Positions 4,782 through 31,236 of a stretch of 64,000 nt of DNA are shown here, piece by piece. The first letter of the stretch is position 1. Each line of letters starts with the position of its first letter. Source of the stretch: an uncultured Muribaculaceae bacterium (GTDB lineage Bacteria; Bacteroidota; Bacteroidia; Bacteroidales; Muribaculaceae); the NCBI GenBank assembly GCA_934661195.1, contig CAKUJD010000005.1, positions 186,001-250,000 of the forward strand, read 5' to 3'. The position numbers and the translations under genes are program-made. The notes under the pieces were generated by a model. It did not search any database and had not been told where the DNA came from. It was given only the letters and a program-made list of their open reading frames with translations.

Positions 4782-6188
4782 TCATGCCACGCGCGAGCAC
4801 ACGGCCAGTGCCGCGCCAAGCACCACGGCAAATGCCGCCAGCCATCCCGTCAGAGCCTTGCGCTGCTTGCCCTCGGCGGCCCGGCACAGCACATAGGTGG
4901 CCAGGGTGGCCATCAGCGGCTCGAAGGGCAGCACATAGCGGCTAATCGAGCCTGCCGTGATATAGGCAATGGCGGCGTAGCTGGCCGCGAGCCACCATGC
5001 CCAAAGGCCCAGGCTGTCGCGCTTGCGCCACGACACGGCCACGAAGTAGAATATGGCCATAGCCCCCACGGCATACCACCCGTAGGCCAGCCGCGGCAGC
5101 ACGGTGTCGACGCTCACCACAGCGCTTTTAAGCCACGGAAACGGTATGATGAACTGCACTGCCAGCGTCAGTGGCAGCATGGCCGCGCGCAGCAGTTTGG
5201 GATAGTTGAAGTAGTCGCCTATGAGGCGCAGATATGGTGCCTGCGCGCCGTCGTTGATGTATGCCTCGCGCATCTCGTTGCCGCCGTTCACTATTATCAC
5301 GTGCCGCTCCACCGAGTAGTAGGCAAAGTGGTTGCCCACGGCCATCAGCGCCACGGCCGCCAAGGCCAGGGCCGCCGCGGTGCGCCAGTGGCTGCGCGCA
5401 TTGCCTGCCCACATCATGGCCACGCCCATCAGCACAAAATAGAGGTAGGTGGTGCGCCCGAAGGCCAGAATCACGCACGCCATCACATATGCCCACCAGT
5501 CGGCCGCCGTGAAGCTGTCGCCGCGGCGCAGTCCCGCCAGCGTATACCCCACCAGCCCTATGGCCAGATACACCATGGCCTCCTTCTGTATGCGTATGCC
5601 CTGCGACACAAAGTAGGCCAGCACCCCTGTCATCACCATGGCCACAACCGCCACTGTGGGTCCGCTTGCGCTAACGCGCCCGTCAAGCATGCGCCGGGCC
5701 ACTGCTCCGGCCGTCACTACGGCAGCCAGCACAAAGGCCGCGTTCATGGCCATGGGCCACGCCACGCTCACGCCCAGCAGACTCCACAGCCCCATCATCA
5801 GCACGGGCAGGCCTGGAAACATCACGGGCAGGTTTTGCCCGCTGCCGTTGAAGTGATACAGGGCCCACTCATAGTAGTGGCTGTCGTCGGCGCGTAGCAC
5901 TGGGTGGGCCAGTGTGCCGCCCGAGTGCAGCGTCCAGTCCCAAATGTTATACATCGAGCAGCCGGCCACCACAGCAGATATGGCCAGCAGCGCCCACATG
6001 CCTCCGCGCGTGGCCCAACTGCGGCTGGCGTACGCCCACATGGGCAGTGCGCAGGCCACGGTCATGGCCAGGGTGATTTTGCTGCCGTCGGCCGGGCCAA
6101 ACTGCCAGCTGGCGGCCGCAAACGCCACTGCCACAATAAGGGTTGCGGCCAGGGCGAATGAGAGTCGGCTTTGCAGTGCTGAAATCAT
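4782..6188 (-). CDS. Polytopic membrane protein, possibly a GT-C glycosyltransferase
   Basis: The 468-residue protein has about ten to twelve predicted membrane segments. After the first two helices comes a long outer loop with the acidic pair in LRADDSHYYEWALYHF, followed by the segment NLPVMFPGLPVLMMG. An acidic pair in the first large extracytoplasmic loop, with the C-terminal pattern SRYVLPFEPLMATLATYV, fits GT-C (GT39/GT83-like) enzymes that use polyprenyl-phosphate sugars. No diagnostic family motif is seen, so the activity is inference. The start MISALQ at 6188 removes an unsupported 19-residue extension. A -7 box TAGATTTG lies at 6252-6245. It is monocistronic and convergent with pyrH. 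Confidence 0.75.
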   Translation of the reverse strand: MISALQSRLSFALAATLIVAVAFAAASWQFGPADGSKITLAMTVACALPMWAYASRSWATRGGMWALLAISAVVAGCSMYNIWDWTLHSGGTLAHPVLRADDSHYYEWALYHFNGSGQNLPVMFPGLPVLMMGLWSLLGVSVAWPMAMNAAFVLAAVVTAGAVARRMLDGRVSASGPTVAVVAMVMTGVLAYFVSQGIRIQKEAMVYLAIGLVGYTLAGLRRGDSFTAADWWAYVMACVILAFGRTTYLYFVLMGVAMMWAGNARSHWRTAAALALAAVALMAVGNHFAYYSVERHVIIVNGGNEMREAYINDGAQAPYLRLIGDYFNYPKLLRAAMLPLTLAVQFIIPFPWLKSAVVSVDTVLPRLAYGWYAVGAMAIFYFVAVSWRKRDSLGLWAWWLAASYAAIAYITAGSISRYVLPFEPLMATLATYVLCRAAEGKQRKALTGWLAAFAVVLGAALAVCSRVA

Positions 6189-25808: not shown

Positions 25809-26582
25809 CTACAGCGGGCAGTGATACTGTCCTTTGTGCAGTGTGGCACGGCCATATTGCACCGCATGGGCAGGGCAGTAGTGATAGCAAGCCAGACACA
25901 TGGTGCAGCGGCTGCCCCACTGAGGGCGGCCGCCGCCGAGTGTGACATTGCCCAGCGTACACACTCGGGCGCACTTGCCGCAGCCGGTGCAGCGGCTGGG
26001 CTGCGCATGAAAGGGGCGCGGACTCATCAGCGCCAGCCCGAACAGCGGGTTTGCCACCCTCGACTTGAGCCAAGCCATGCTGCCGCGCGTCACGTCGGTC
26101 ACCTGCAGATGCAGTCCTATGCTTTTGGCTATGTCGGCAATGCGGCTGTGGGCCGAATCGAGTTTCTCGGCCTCGAGTGCGGCGGGGTCGGTGTCGAAGC
26201 CCGGCAGGCACACATAGTTGTTGGGCATGGTCAGCGAGTAGGCGGCGTTGAGCCGCACTCCCGCCAGCGACAGCTGCCGGCGCAGAATGCGGTCGGTGAG
26301 CCCCACGTCGTCGCCGCAGGTCACCACGGCATAGCAGTGGTTGCCGTCGGGTGTGTAGCCGTCGAGCTTTAGTCGCCTGACGAATGCGCTCACCACCGGC
26401 GGCAGTCCCCATGAGTAGGTGGGAAACACAAAGCCCACCGCCTCGCCTTTGGCAAGGTCGAAGCGGCTGTCGCCGTCGGTGAGGCTCTGCGCCATGGCCA
26501 CTGTGCGGCCGTCGGCGGTGAGCCTCGCCAGCTGCCGTGCCGCCCAACGGCTGTTGCCTGTGCCTGAAAACCAGAATATCAT
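25809..26582 (-). CDS. EFR1-type flavodoxin-ferredoxin fusion
   Basis: The 257-residue protein has an N-terminal flavodoxin-like domain ([18 protein letters not shown], phosphate loop [15 protein letters not shown]) and a C-terminal double [4Fe-4S] ferredoxin with [11 protein letters not shown] and [12 protein letters not shown]. This matches the EFR1 family of putative flavin- and iron-sulfur-dependent electron carriers common in anaerobes. The start at 26582 lies 13 bases after the Smr-protein stop codon, so the pair is an operon. Partner enzyme unknown. Confidence 0.92.
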
Positions 26583-26595
26583 GCCGTGCTGTGCG

Positions 26596-27684
26596 TTATT
26601 TGTGAATGGTCACTTGCGTGGCTCCGAAGCCATATTCGCGGAAGCTTGCGTCCTGGGCAAGGCATCGCGGATAGCGGCGTTTGAGGTCTTGCAGCAGCGC
26701 GTGGCGCAGCACTCCCTCGCCCTTGCCGTGAATGAACACTATGCGCTGCCCTGGGTGGTTGATGTTCTCGTCCATGGCCTCGCGGAACTTGCTCAGCTGG
26801 TAGTTGAGCATGTCGGTGTGGTTCATTCCTGTGGTGTCGTCGAGCAGTTCGCTTATGTGCAGGTCAACCACAATGTTGCCGCTGCTGGGATCGCGGCGCT
26901 GGTGGCGCTTCACGGGCTGGGCCTTGGGACGCTCGTCGTCGGCGCGCTTGCCGCGCATGGCGCGCTCCAGCTCGCTGCTGTCGATGGTCAGCTGGCGCGC
27001 GGGCAGGTCGTTGCGCGTGATGGTGAGGGCTATCACCGGCACGTCGAAGTATTCATTGTCGTGAAAACTGTGCAGCTTGTAGAACTTGGTCACATCGAGC
27101 CGTTGCTCCACCAGAGCAGGATTTTTCAGTTTGAAGCCGCGCTGCTGCTTGAATGCCACATATTGCACGGCCACGTGGGTGAGTGAGTTCAGGTCGTCGT
27201 GGCCAAACTCCTCGAGCTCGAGCTGGAAGTTGGGCTCCATCACACCGGCCCAGCGGGTGGTCCACTCGGTGTCGTCGTCGCCACGGCTCATATAGGTGGC
27301 ATACAGAAAGTAGTTGCTGTCGTTCACCAGTGTGGCATAGAAGGTGGTGGTGCTCAGATGCTTCAGTTCGCGGGCCTCGTAGGCCAGCACAATGTTGAGC
27401 ACGTCGCCGCCTTTGGTCTCAATCACAGGCTCTTCGGCCTGCACCAGCTGTGGCTTGGTGGCTGCCGGCTTGTCGGGCTCCACAAGCTTGCTCTTCACCT
27501 TCACGGGACGCTCGTAGGCGCTGGGCTTGCTGGCCGCGGCGCTCACCACCACCACCTCTCGCGTGGGCACGGGACGTTCAAACCCGTCGCCGTCTTCCAC
27601 ATAGGCTGTGTTGCCTTCGATTTTTGTCACTTTGCCGCCCCCCACATCGTTGAGGAAGCGCACTATGTCGTTAACTTTCACCAT
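26596..27684 (-). CDS. DUF2027 and Smr-domain protein
   Basis: The 362-residue protein starts MVKVNDIVRFLNDVGGGKVT, a KOW/SH3-like N-terminal piece. A DUF2027 region (about 130-265) follows, and the C-terminus is an Smr domain with VDLHISELLDD and the loop FIHGKGEGVLRHAL. Smr domains often nick or bind nucleic acid; recent work links some to ribosome rescue, but activity here is untested. The ribosome-binding sequence AAAGGAG before the ATG lies inside the 22-base repeat shared with the end of the upstream gene. That shows the two genes were once only eight bases apart and were separated by the KilA-N gene. Overlap with the repeat leaves the coding sequence intact. Confidence 0.9.
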   Translation of the reverse strand: MVKVNDIVRFLNDVGGGKVTKIEGNTAYVEDGDGFERPVPTREVVVVSAAASKPSAYERPVKVKSKLVEPDKPAATKPQLVQAEEPVIETKGGDVLNIVLAYEARELKHLSTTTFYATLVNDSNYFLYATYMSRGDDDTEWTTRWAGVMEPNFQLELEEFGHDDLNSLTHVAVQYVAFKQQRGFKLKNPALVEQRLDVTKFYKLHSFHDNEYFDVPVIALTITRNDLPARQLTIDSSELERAMRGKRADDERPKAQPVKRHQRRDPSSGNIVVDLHISELLDDTTGMNHTDMLNYQLSKFREAMDENINHPGQRIVFIHGKGEGVLRHALLQDLKRRYPRCLAQDASFREYGFGATQVTIHK

Positions 27685-27705
27685 ATCGTTGTTACTCCTT
27701 TCGTT
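27684..27705. repeat. Left copy of the 22-base direct repeat around the KilA-N gene
   Basis: It is identical to 28609-28630. This copy holds the ribosome-binding site and the first base of the Smr-gene start codon. Similarity continues for ten more bases with three mismatches. Confidence 0.9.
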
Positions 27706-27732
27706 CTTGTTTCTGTATTGTGGTCGAAATGC

Positions 27733-28542
27733 TCATAGCAGTAGGTTCCGGCCCCTTGTTTCCTCAAGAATCCTCATCTGCTGTATGGCTATTTGGTTTA
27801 GTTTAAATAATCGTTCTGATTGTGGCATGCCATCGTTGATAAACACTGCATTCAGATTTTCCATATTTGAAAGGCAAATGAGCTCATTGATGCTCGCATA
27901 ATCACGTATGTTGCCTTTTTTGTCGGGATTTTGTTCTCGCCATTGCCTTGCTGTGATGCCAAACATTGCCATATTTAGCACATCCGCTTCATCGGCATAT
28001 TTGATAGCTGCTTGCTCTCTTGTTACTTCTGCTGGAATAAGATTGGCTTTAATGGCATCGGTGTGTATGTGGTAGTTTATTTTTGAAAGTTCTCGTTTAG
28101 CCGACCAAGCCAACTGCTTTTGCTCTTCGACTTTCAAACGCTGAAACTCACGCACAAGATACAGCTTGAATTCCACGGAAACCCATGATGCAAATTCAAA
28201 AGCAATGTCAGAAACGGCGTATGTTCCTCCATATCTGCCCGATATTGCTTTTATACCAATCGCATTTGTTGATTCCACCCATTTTGTCGGTGACATAGTG
28301 AAGGCATTTAATCCTGCCTCCATTCTAAACCCCTCGAATTCGAAGGGGTTAAAACTGTGATTATACAAGCGCTCCCAAATGCCGAGAAATTCAATTGTAT
28401 TGCGATTTCTCATCCAATTGCCAATTACTCCATTAGGGTCGCTTGCATTTTTCTGCCTGGCTATGTCAGTTATGCATATGTAGTCAATGCCATCTTTGCT
28501 GATGGTTTTGATAGTTTGGTCGTTAACTATTATTTTTGCCAT
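27733..28542 (-). CDS. KilA-N domain protein
   Basis: The 269-residue protein has a KilA-N domain at the N-terminus: ICITDIARQKNASDPNGVIGNWMRNRNTIEFLG, then FEFEGFRMEAGLNAFTMSPTKW and AFEFASWVSVEFKLYLVREFQRL. KilA-N is a DNA-binding domain of phage and large DNA viruses that also occurs in bacterial accessory genes. A helical middle (EQKQLAWSAKRELSKINYHI) is followed by a C-terminal domain unlike anything I can name. Codon use is clearly AT-rich compared with neighbours. It sits between the two 22-base repeats and is the only gene of the insert. Role (regulator, defence or selfish gene) is unknown. Confidence 0.88.
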   Translation of the reverse strand: MAKIIVNDQTIKTISKDGIDYICITDIARQKNASDPNGVIGNWMRNRNTIEFLGIWERLYNHSFNPFEFEGFRMEAGLNAFTMSPTKWVESTNAIGIKAISGRYGGTYAVSDIAFEFASWVSVEFKLYLVREFQRLKVEEQKQLAWSAKRELSKINYHIHTDAIKANLIPAEVTREQAAIKYADEADVLNMAMFGITARQWREQNPDKKGNIRDYASINELICLSNMENLNAVFINDGMPQSERLFKLNQIAIQQMRILEETRGRNLLL

Positions 28543-28608
28543 TATAAAGTATGTATTGTATATTAGGCCAGTGCATTGCCGATATATGTTGGCGTTACAG
28601 TCTCTTCC

Positions 28609-28630
28609 TATCGTTGTTACTCCTTTCGTT
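28609..28630. repeat. Right copy of the 22-base direct repeat
   Basis: Identical to 27684-27705. This copy covers the last codons and TAA stop of the secreted-protein gene. Confidence 0.9.
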
Positions 28631-29507
28631 GCCGTTTCTGTTTGATGGCAGCCACGGCAGCCTCGTATTCCTGTGGATAGATGAGCATGGTGCCAATTTC
28701 GCCGCCGCGGTTGTCGGTGTAGACGTAGCGCAGATGCTTGCGCTCGTCGGCAGCGGCGCGAATCAGCAGGTTAAGCCTGTACGACCCGTCGAGGGTTTTG
28801 AACCAACGCTCGCGCATTTGCTGCACAAATGCAGTCACGTTCACGCTCTCCTTGGTTAGGTATGGGATCATCACCTCCAACTCCAGCGTCTGCGAGTCGG
28901 TGAGTTCAACGTGGGTCAGATACTCATTGTCGGCAATGTGCATGCTGTGCTTTGCCAGGGCTGTTTTTGCCGCCTTCACAATGGCAGCGGTGCCGCTGAG
29001 CGGTGCCGTGGGGCACAGCCAGCGCAGGCTGCCGGCCACGGCTCCCACCACGTTGGGCATGCCGCTGCGGCGGCCGCTCACCACATACATTGTGCAGAAC
29101 CCTGCATTAAGTGCCACCGCCTCGCACTCATAGCGCACTCCGCGGCTAACTTTGGCGAACTGCACCCGCTTGGCCGGCAGCAGGGCAAATGTGGTGTCGG
29201 TCACCGCGCCCACCTCCACCGCCTCGCGGCAAAACGGGTCGCGGCGCTGCACCGCCTGGCTCTGCAGGTAGGCCTCGGGGTCGAATGGCGCGTCGATCAC
29301 ATCGATGCGTGCCAGCTCGCTGATGCCGCCGCTGCCGCTGCGCTGCAGCAGCACGCGCGCCCCTATCGAGCGCATCGAGTTGTCGGCGCTCACCGCCCAG
29401 CTGTCGTCGGGAGTGGTGAGGCTGAAAAAGGCGTTGCTCACAGTGGCTGCCTGCATGGCCAGCGTGGCGGCCGCGGCAATTATGGCTGTAATAAGTCTGT
29501 TCATCAT
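28617..29507 (-). CDS. Secreted protein of unknown function
   Basis: The 296-residue product has a signal peptide (MNRLITAIIAAAATLAMQAA). The mature part has an N-terminal beta-rich domain (FFSLTTPDDSWAVSADNS) and a C-terminal alpha/beta part ending in a basic tail AIKQKRQRKE. I recognise no family. Two ATGs lie in tandem; either can be the start. The last 15 bases, including TAA, lie in the right 22-base repeat. Before the KilA-N insertion the next gene was the Smr protein, so this was the first gene of that operon. The KilA-N gene now lies between them on the same strand. Confidence 0.78.
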   Translation of the reverse strand: MMNRLITAIIAAAATLAMQAATVSNAFFSLTTPDDSWAVSADNSMRSIGARVLLQRSGSGGISELARIDVIDAPFDPEAYLQSQAVQRRDPFCREAVEVGAVTDTTFALLPAKRVQFAKVSRGVRYECEAVALNAGFCTMYVVSGRRSGMPNVVGAVAGSLRWLCPTAPLSGTAAIVKAAKTALAKHSMHIADNEYLTHVELTDSQTLELEVMIPYLTKESVNVTAFVQQMRERWFKTLDGSYRLNLLIRAAADERKHLRYVYTDNRGGEIGTMLIYPQEYEAAVAAIKQKRQRKE

Positions 29508-29543
29508 GCTGTTGCTAAAGTTGCATTGCTAAAAAAAACGAAT

Positions 29544-29581
29544 GCGCGCGCTAAACCCGTGTGTGGCGAGTTAGCGCGCGC
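29544..29581 (-). terminator. Terminator of tRNA-Ser
   Basis: A perfect 11-bp stem (GCGCGCGCTAA/TTAGCGCGCGC) lies seven bases past the tRNA 3' end. In the minus direction it is followed six bases later by eight T residues. Confidence 0.82.
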
Positions 29582-29587
29582 TTTGTG

Positions 29588-29675
29588 CGGAGTGAGCGAG
29601 ATTCGAACTCGCGAAACGCTTTTGACGTTTACACGCTTTCCAGGCGTGCCTCTTCAACCACTCGAGCATCACTCC
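29588..29675 (-). tRNA. tRNA-Ser (anticodon GGA)
   Basis: A class II tRNA with a long variable arm. The acceptor arms GGAGTGA/TCACTCC pair, the anticodon stem CACGC/GCGTG holds loop CTGGAAA (anticodon GGA), and the T arm GCGAGTTCGAATCTCGC is canonical. Discriminator G is present; CCA is not encoded. Confidence 0.96.
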
Positions 29676-29710
29676 ATGTGTGTGGTGGCTTGTGGCCGTG
29701 TTGCGTGGTG

Positions 29711-29718
29711 CAAAGATA
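29711..29718 (-). promoter_or_regulatory. -7 promoter element of tRNA-Ser
   Basis: TATCTTTG on the minus strand lies 35 bases before the tRNA 5' end. The upstream region overlaps the promoter of the divergent helicase gene. Confidence 0.55.
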
Positions 29719-29725
29719 GTGAAAT

Positions 29726-29759
29726 TTTGCTAATGCTAAAGAAATTGTGAGTAATTTTG
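29726..29759 (+). promoter_or_regulatory. Promoter of the helicase gene, predicting a leaderless mRNA
   Basis: TTTGC (29726-29730) and TAATTTTG (29752-29759) form a Bacteroidetes promoter. The ATG starts four bases after the -7 box, so transcription probably begins at or next to the start codon and leaves no space for a ribosome-binding site. Confidence 0.6.
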
Positions 29760-29763
29760 TGAT

Positions 29764-31236
29764 ATGAACGATTCAACCCGATGCCACAATGTTACGCCAG
29801 AGCCCGTCGATGGCTCTGATGTGGCCGCCAGCGCCTTCGGCGCCGACGTGATGGCCATGCTGCCATTCGAGCCAAATTCCGACCAGGTGACAATGATTGC
29901 CGCCTTTGCCCATTTCTTGGCCCGCGGAGGCGACCGCGCTGTGTTTCTGCTCAACGGATATGCCGGCACTGGCAAGACAAGCGTGGCCGGAGCCATAGTG
30001 CGCACTCTCACCATGCGCGGGCAGAAGACGGTGCTGCTTGCTCCCACGGGGCGCGCCGCGCAGGTGTTCAGTGAATATTCAGGCCACCCTGCCTACACCA
30101 TTCATCGCAAAATCTATCGTCAGAACGGATATCTCGACAGCGGCTTCTCGCTTGCCGAAAACAAGCATACCAACACCGTTTTCATCGTCGATGAGGCCTC
30201 GATGATAAGCAACTCGCAGGGCTTTGAGGGCGCTGCGTTTGGCTCCGGCCGGCTGCTCGACGACTTGGTGCACTATGTGTATGCCGACACGGCCAGCGGC
30301 TGCCGCCTGATGCTGATGGGTGACTCGGCCCAGCTGCCGCCGGTGGGGCAGACCGAGAGCCCCGCGCTCAGCGCGCAGGTGCTCAGCGGATACGGATTGC
30401 GCGTCTACGACATATGGCTCACGCAGATAGCGCGCCAGGCCGCCCAGAGTGGCATCCTTTATAACGCCACCACGGTGCGCCGCATGCTCACCACGGCGCA
30501 GATGGTTCCGCCCGAGCTGCAACTCACCGGTTTCAGCGACGTTGAGGCGGTGACGGGTGAGTTCCTGCTTGAAAAAATCAGCGACTGCTACGACAGTGGC
30601 GGCCTCGACGACACCATAATAGTGACGCGCAGCAATCGTCGCGCCAAGCTGTTTAACGGAGCCGTGCGCAACCAAATTCTGTATCGCGACGACGAACTGG
30701 TGAACGGCGACATGCTGCTGGTGGCCAAGAACAACTACTTCTGGGCGGCCGACTACAAGGAAATTGACTTCATCGCCAATGGCGATGTGGCCTGCGTAAA
30801 GCGTGTGTGGGGCGATGTTGAGGAACGCTATGGCCTTCGCTTTGCACAGGTGACGCTTGAATTCCCCGACCATGGTGGCGTGGAGGTGGAGGCCAAGATA
30901 ATTCTCGACAGCCTCATGAGCGACACGCCCGCACTCACGCGCGAACAAAATGAGCGCATGTACAATGAACTGATGCAGGAACTGCAGGGCGACAAGCGCA
31001 CGCGCTACCGCGCGCTTAAGGCCAACCCATACTTCAACGCGCTGCAGGTGAAGTTTGCCTACGCCGTCACTTGCCACAAGGCTCAGGGCGGCCAGTGGAG
31101 CAACGTGTTTATCGACATGGGCTCGATAATGCCCGACTCGCTTGGCACGCTCGACTTCATGCGCTGGCTATACACAGCCATGACCCGCGCACGCCGTCAC
31201 CTCTACCTCGTCAACTGCCCGCTCGCCACCACGTAA
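29764..31236 (+). CDS. AAA family ATPase, RecD/Pif1-like superfamily 1 helicase
   Basis: The 490-residue protein has an N-terminal AAA_30-type ATPase: Walker A NGYAGTGKTS at 64-73, Walker B VFIVDEASMIS near 140, LMLMGDSAQLPPVG and an arginine-rich motif. The C-terminal UvrD_C_2-like domain has AYAVTCHKAQGGQWSNVFID and YTAMTRARRHLYLVN. These make a 5'-3' DNA helicase core like RecD/RecD2/Pif1. It is not RecD of a RecBCD complex: length and lack of recB/recC next to it argue against that. Similar proteins are widespread in Bacteroidetes. Transcribed alone from a divergent promoter with tRNA-Ser. Confidence 0.9.
   Translation: MNDSTRCHNVTPEPVDGSDVAASAFGADVMAMLPFEPNSDQVTMIAAFAHFLARGGDRAVFLLNGYAGTGKTSVAGAIVRTLTMRGQKTVLLAPTGRAAQVFSEYSGHPAYTIHRKIYRQNGYLDSGFSLAENKHTNTVFIVDEASMISNSQGFEGAAFGSGRLLDDLVHYVYADTASGCRLMLMGDSAQLPPVGQTESPALSAQVLSGYGLRVYDIWLTQIARQAAQSGILYNATTVRRMLTTAQMVPPELQLTGFSDVEAVTGEFLLEKISDCYDSGGLDDTIIVTRSNRRAKLFNGAVRNQILYRDDELVNGDMLLVAKNNYFWAADYKEIDFIANGDVACVKRVWGDVEERYGLRFAQVTLEFPDHGGVEVEAKIILDSLMSDTPALTREQNERMYNELMQELQGDKRTRYRALKANPYFNALQVKFAYAVTCHKAQGGQWSNVFIDMGSIMPDSLGTLDFMRWLYTAMTRARRHLYLVNCPLATT

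Follow-up and report, generated by a model that had tools for sequence, protein, structure and literature searches.

A lone KilA-N gene between direct repeats in a Muribaculaceae genome, its probable gain by horizontal transfer, and similar repeats around related genes at other loci

In a 64,000-nucleotide stretch of DNA from an uncultured Muribaculaceae bacterium (assembly GCA_934661195.1, contig CAKUJD010000005.1, positions 186,001 to 250,000; hereafter the window), a single KilA-N gene (27733..28542, minus strand, 269 aa, PADLOC PDC-S22 / PHROG 2657) lies between two other genes and is flanked by direct repeats. This PDC-S22 KilA-N gene was probably transferred horizontally and added between its upstream neighbor, gene1 (28617..29507, minus strand, 296 aa), and its downstream neighbor, an Smr gene (26596..27684, minus strand, 362 aa, DUF2027 and Smr domain), in an event of the class with long and variable target duplication, by host recombination that would have relied on a homology anchor. 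The type of event is already known; that it recurs among lone KilA-N and RhuM genes was described in none of the literature matches listed.

The 22 bases at 28609-28630 (copy 1, the upstream copy in the direction of transcription) and at 27684-27705 (copy 2) are 100% identical, with 85% identity across 40 bp. Ungapped similarity continues to 28641 in copy 1 and to 27716 in copy 2, giving a total of 22 bp exact or 33 bp with three mismatches, and a gapped alignment matches in 46 of 59 columns. Copy 1 holds the last codons of gene1, its TAA stop (28617-28619) and a further 8 bp, and copy 2 holds the AAAGGAG ribosome-binding site and the first base of the Smr ATG, with seven bases separating stop from ATG in each copy (eight if counted base to base). 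Because the repeat spans both the gene1 end with its TAA and the Smr ribosome-binding site with the first base of its ATG, either copy alone makes a complete two-gene junction, and both neighboring open reading frames (ORFs) are intact. The exact repeats enclose an insert of 903 bp (27706..28608, minus strand, 41% GC), in which the KilA-N ORF is the only minus-strand ORF of at least 80 aa lying entirely within the insert. The GC content of the KilA-N gene is 41%, compared with 62% and 60% for the neighbors. A 66-bp leader upstream of the KilA-N ATG (28543..28608, minus strand) presumably carries a promoter or ribosome-binding site, as leaders common to some relatives suggest. A preliminary description of this DNA had already reported identical 22-base repeats around about 900 bases with one AT-rich KilA-N gene, the contents of both copies, ten further bases with three mismatches (present in both the 40-bp and the gapped alignments), and the tight junction obtained on removing one copy, and all of these were recovered here. 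The window repeat scores 24 (+1/-2), whereas none of 400 first-order Markov resamplings of its flanks scored above 15, which confirms that it is well above chance.

Repeats of this kind recur around other members of the family. Relatives of the KilA-N gene number at least 8,000 (all 8,000 scored candidates were significant), and 219 distinct KilA-N genes were collected, five of which were dropped for short flanks, leaving 214 that could be tested. Repeats were sought in 500 bp on each side, without gaps (+1/-2) and with a score of at least 20. Flanking direct repeats were found at 26 of 214 KilA-N genes, compared with 14 of 480 other ORFs (150-450 codons) from the same loci (P = 4.6e-6). Hence, 25 of 213 KilA-N loci beyond the window carry them, and this recurrence, together with the gene-free adjacency of the two neighbors in one relative (genome G105, described below), upholds the earlier proposal of a single-gene insertion that duplicated the junction and left both genes whole. 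Among other controls, repeats flanked 0/30 Smr genes, 1/24 gene1 relatives and 1/48 tested acetyltransferases (PF13302; 50 fetched), and the KilA-N genes also differed from these three controls pooled (2/102; P = 0.0013). By eye, the 14 control ORFs with repeats included four CRISPR arrays, three RhuM genes, one ORF6N gene and one transposase-like gene; setting aside CRISPR and RhuM/ORF6N leaves 6/472. RhuM genes resemble KilA-N genes in this respect, with flanking repeats at 13 of 68, or at 11 of 66 (P = 7e-4) without loci L022 and L055, which had been placed in the set because their repeats were noticed beforehand. Two features weaken the counts: the score threshold of 20 was set after a first look at 79 loci, 10 of which scored at least 22, and the KilA-N loci are related, hence not independent of one another, with several from viruses almost identical; the same holds for the 63 pairs described below.

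At two of the counted loci, L015 and L125 (the latter coinciding in position with L020), the 3' end of another KilA-N copy forms the repeat found upstream of the KilA-N gene. Such repeats are therefore remains of an earlier KilA-N copy, and it seems that one copy replaced or joined another. Excluding both leaves 24/214, and against the acetyltransferases alone P is 0.035.

Across loci, the repeats vary widely. At the 25 further loci they are 27-110 bp long without gaps, and about 30-340 bp with gaps, and their sequences are, by eye, unrelated between most loci. At several loci they coincide with the ends of neighboring genes, with terminators or with promoters. The gene ends involved are presumably those of HsdS, together with its terminator (L218), IscS (L262), a transporter (L207) and a hydrogenase-like gene (L129), and we take the repeat of L001/L121 to be the upstream region, or promoter, of an ORF6N gene. 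The neighbors of 38 repeat-flanked loci (67 proteins) included five BRO-N proteins, two each of N6 methylase, RhuM, specificity subunit and dihydroorotate dehydrogenase, and single matches to many families. Aminotransferase class V and permeases were also among the 25 of 82 families listed, and no single target was visible. Targeting of gene junctions as such, suggested earlier, is not demonstrated by these loci, given that gene ends, terminators and promoters hold repeats too and that selection alone could keep harmless insertions.

The position of repeats at gene 3' ends recalls att sites, and members of the family are found on satellite phages and plasmids as well, including one Xenorhabdus plasmid on which it adjoins a gene annotated 'recombinase family protein'. 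Both points would suit a mobile element moved by its own enzyme or by one acting in trans, whether through IS-like transposition or through a tyrosine or serine recombinase acting at gene ends. However, we regard such an element as unlikely, because the window insert has neither a recombinase nor terminal inverted repeats, the repeats are mostly unrelated in sequence and length, and most pairs of related genes have no conserved end beyond the stop codon. A Pfam search of the insert's ORF showed no transposase or integrase, in agreement with the preliminary description, and none of the 12 inverted pairs found sits at the insert ends, which sets the insert apart from IS elements and transposons. 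It differs from a site-specific integrative element in its lack of an integrase and in having repeats that, by eye, differ between most loci; an att-like core common to the repeat-flanked loci was likewise not seen by eye, save for a hairpin common to L219 and L266. As to the attC site expected 3' of the gene in an integron gene cassette, Rfam gave no match in 26500-30500, although no search aimed at attC sites was made.

Some individual repeats have features of their own. In genome G653, the repeats around the KilA-N genes of both L219 and L266 contain a similar hairpin (TGAGGCGTATG...GCCTCAACA), which may be a terminator or repeat element specific to that lineage. At L043, a perfect 107-bp repeat (4900-5006 and 5856-5962) means that the KilA-N gene and the next, BRO-N, gene share an upstream region and their first eight codons. 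At L272 (1253-3367), three copies of a 76-nt spacer (76%, 95% and 100% identical to the reference) frame a RhuM and a KilA-N gene in a manner resembling a cassette array.

Comparison of closely related genes indicates what moves. Eleven KilA-N pairs share 83-95% identical DNA, and in eight of these there is no other flank similarity and the match mostly ends at or just before the stop codon; further flank similarity was seen for L257/L258, L006/L197 and L255/L257. In a larger set of 63 KilA-N pairs (at least 78% nucleotide identity, without other flank similarity, and with matches of more than 400 bp past the gene set aside), the match ended no more than 7 nt from the stop codon in 40 pairs and no later than +16 in 59. 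At the other end, 17 of the 63 matches extended 44-288 bp upstream of the ATG. Because relatives set in unlike flanks usually cease to resemble each other at the stop codon, the unit that moves is the gene, at times with its promoter. The alternative offered in the preliminary description, that the insert is the scar of a larger element, fits poorly with this pattern and with the other repeats, which also frame a single gene.

The neighborhood of the Smr gene in relatives bears on whether the site is normally empty. An Smr relative was found in 193 of 198 genomes of the family, and the best 30 Smr loci were read with about 1.5 kb of flank. In one of these 30, in G105 (L152), a gene1 relative lies directly before Smr, and there is no KilA-N gene; the stop of this gene1 relative, TGATAA, lies 85 bp from the Smr ATG, the TGA and TAA within its match being these terminal stops. 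Hence, the gene-free arrangement exists. In G029, the end of a diverged KilA-N gene (L157:3026-3137) lies about 0.47 kb upstream of Smr, with other sequence between and the gene cut by the contig end; L157 is the only KilA-N match among the 30 Smr loci. This locus could suggest that KilA-N was an ancestral member of the operon, and that the repeat arose by chance or as a by-product of tandem duplication. Such an origin is extremely unlikely, since the single match is diverged and stands apart from Smr, the neighbors in G105 are adjacent without the gene, the GC content of the gene departs from the 60-62% of its surroundings, and the repeat exceeds those in resampled flanks. The expectations of the preliminary description on this point were that relatives would not carry the gene here as an ancestral member, which holds for the Smr loci read, and that empty sites would be found, which holds at the level of gene arrangement, in G105.

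In the genera searched, gene1 was found in 33 of 101 genomes and in 17 of 61, and it adjoins Smr in 1 of the 30 Smr loci. KilA-N is patchy, occurring in 113 of 393 genomes (E ≤ 1e-60) of the order of genome G001, which we take to be Bacteroidales. Empty sites were also sought at other loci. For the IscS locus (L262) there was no other genome in the genus, and none of five others in the family matched (E 1e-120); for an HTH locus (L256), identity to the best-matching other genomes in the genus was 64-67%. Among E. coli genomes, 1 of 5,426 had a KilA-N relative by DNA similarity to two gammaproteobacterial queries. This relative (L345:5873-6730) lies within an island, with dinD as the next annotated gene, and so offers no single-gene empty site.

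As to how the repeats arose, a lone PDC-S22 KilA-N gene with its short leader would have been acquired by horizontal transfer without a transposase or recombinase. One end of the incoming fragment would pair with the same gene end in the recipient, the homology anchor, while the other would join illegitimately slightly upstream of the anchor, leaving the junction of stop codon and ribosome-binding site present twice. Selection may then have retained additions that spared both neighbors and brought a useful defense gene. Alternatively, the repeat could be a true target duplication, in which a staggered break (or two nicks) was filled in around a captured gene and the two copies, identical at first, drifted apart with no need for homology; we consider this possible but rather doubtful. 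If one copy came from a diverged homolog, differences between copies should resemble those between working genes. At six loci, 20 of 43 changed codons were synonymous, where about eight would be expected for random changes. At 11 loci with mismatches in repeats overlapping an ORF, 48 of 88 were at the third base of a codon (P = 3.4e-5, for an expectation of one third), or 44 of 79 without the doubtful ORF of L125. ORFs for the test on 11 loci were taken mechanically, and the two sets overlap in four loci. The 130-bp IscS pair (L262) is free of gaps and identical at 108 of 130 positions, which is what descent of one copy from a diverged, functional gene would produce. The excess at third positions and the divergence of some coding repeats without gaps argue against the staggered break, as do the lengths (27-110 bp ungapped, to about 340 bp gapped), which show no fixed stagger.

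Several observations nonetheless weigh against gain by anchored recombination, and some of them would suit a staggered break better. Duplication followed by drift with one copy in use would, by a rough estimate, place a fraction of about 0.425 of the differences on third positions, compared with 0.545 observed (P = 0.015); the excess thus favors the homology anchor, but weakly and short of proof. The repeats at L218, L266 and L128 are perfect over 44-107 bp, with no sign of donor divergence, and the fragments at L380 and L411 carry stop codons, so that decay is real. At L129 and L042, the copy in the intact gene is nearer to the gene-free relative G685, and the second copy is the odd one. For L042, G685 shows 93% identity as far as the end of the gene, with other DNA downstream and no KilA-N match in the following 1.5 kb, and the intact copy fits it better than does the fragment (58 bp at 84%), a result that fits both routes. 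The three changed codons of the window are all non-synonymous, although its own differences are too few to decide the route. In addition, repeats of score 20 are lacking at 188 of the 214 KilA-N genes, including those of L003 and L019, which are 94.8% identical in unlike flanks. The repeat is therefore one outcome among several, or is soon lost. Finally, G105 is too distant to give the exact site (its gene1 is 43% identical, ends earlier and has its stop 85 bp from Smr), and a strain-level empty site for the gene1-Smr junction could not be read.

By its sequence profiles, the KilA-N protein is a candidate single-gene phage defense protein. It matches Pfam KilA-N (PF04383) at residues 10-137 (E 1.7e-18; 66.8 bits against a curated cut-off of 23.8) and the PADLOC PDC-S22 profile over its full length, residues 3-263 (E 1.1e-130, 432.7 bits), with a layout of an N-terminal DNA-binding domain and a C-terminal helical domain. 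PDC-S22 is itself a database candidate, and among the literature matches listed no assay of its activity was found; one source, in the part available, remarks on its co-occurrence in Streptococcus suis (PMC12813430). One RhuM and one ORF6N protein match PADLOC PDC-S05, and one BRO-N protein matches PDC-S13, its C-terminal part weakly matching the PDC-S22 profile (E 2.7e-5). Their common trait is thus membership of a loose class of lone DNA-binding defense candidates. BstA (PMC8585504), compared here by description only, is a prophage-encoded defense protein with a KilA-N-like domain; as far as the available passages describe it, it is mostly prophage-borne in Gram-negative bacteria and has a cognate aba DNA element.

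The predicted structure offers a further, speculative lead. DdrC is a DNA-damage response protein, and that of Deinococcus radiodurans was the best structural match to the KilA-N model (residues 1-262). The model is middling (pLDDT 69, pTM 0.45, with residues 102-134 below 50), the root-mean-square deviation is 13-15 Å, and helical folds can reach such a match score by chance. A sequence search of the PDB gave two matches (E 0.6 and 0.92), the profile gave none, and neither matched DdrC. To our knowledge, DdrC is not a lone mobile gene. Were the likeness real, the DNA-binding KilA-N protein might aid its own capture by annealing strands or holding ends at a break. This is quite unlikely in view of the model's quality and the lack of a DdrC sequence match, and the pattern would be the same for any useful lone gene under selection. 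A wider version, in which the KilA-N/RhuM/BRO group comprises self-spreading single genes whose DdrC-like strand-annealing products paste their own genes at breaks or replication forks of any host, seems just as improbable. If the protein takes part, this would be a new mode of gene mobility, and if the genes do spread themselves, a mobile gene would do without a transposase, given a product that anneals DNA and also serves against phages.

Insertions of this type have precedents. Nobusato et al. in 2000 and Furuta et al. in 2010 reportedly described insertion with long target duplication for restriction-modification genes in Helicobacter pylori and others. In both that process and the one considered here, the unit is a gene without transposon parts, flanked by variable direct repeats copied from the target. 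The known cargo is restriction-modification genes, whereas here it is lone KilA-N (and RhuM) genes in hosts that are mainly Bacteroidales, and the window repeat is at the short end of the length range. The KilA-N cases hence represent a variant of insertion with long target duplication. Passages of three papers describe how restriction-modification genes were inserted without a mobile element, their targets undergoing 'long and variable' duplication (PMC3031569, PMC3874152, PMC1643837), one of them giving duplications 'in the order of 100 bp' (PMC3874152), and the new kind of element envisaged in the preliminary description is therefore not supported. Homology-facilitated illegitimate recombination, as invoked in a passage on immunity-gene arrays in Vibrio (PMC5361080), combines one homologous anchor, one illegitimate end and uptake of foreign DNA, as proposed for the KilA-N insert, although the experiments cited in that passage come from other, transformable species, and for KilA-N we infer the anchor. 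Flanking repeats are also described, in the part available, for 10-18% of small variable segments (PMC2884548); those repeats start at 5 bp, and 66-94% are shorter than 30 bp, whereas the KilA-N counts include only scores of at least 20. Among the titles, abstracts and passages of the literature matches listed, there was no account of lone mobile KilA-N or RhuM genes bordered by direct repeats, with a unit ending at the stop codon. The KilA-N loci hence provide a counted example of defense-candidate genes moving singly, without a known element, between unrelated genomic sites. They link what was long ago observed for restriction-modification genes with another class of genes and point to lone genes spreading without a transposon. 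If the homology-anchored route is correct, gene-sized gains in non-model gut bacteria could be read from partial copies of neighboring gene ends.

Elsewhere at the window locus, gene1 gave no Pfam or NCBIfam match (E 0.001), and a minus-strand tRNA-Ser (gga) gene (29587-29675) lies upstream of gene1, 79 bp from its ATG.

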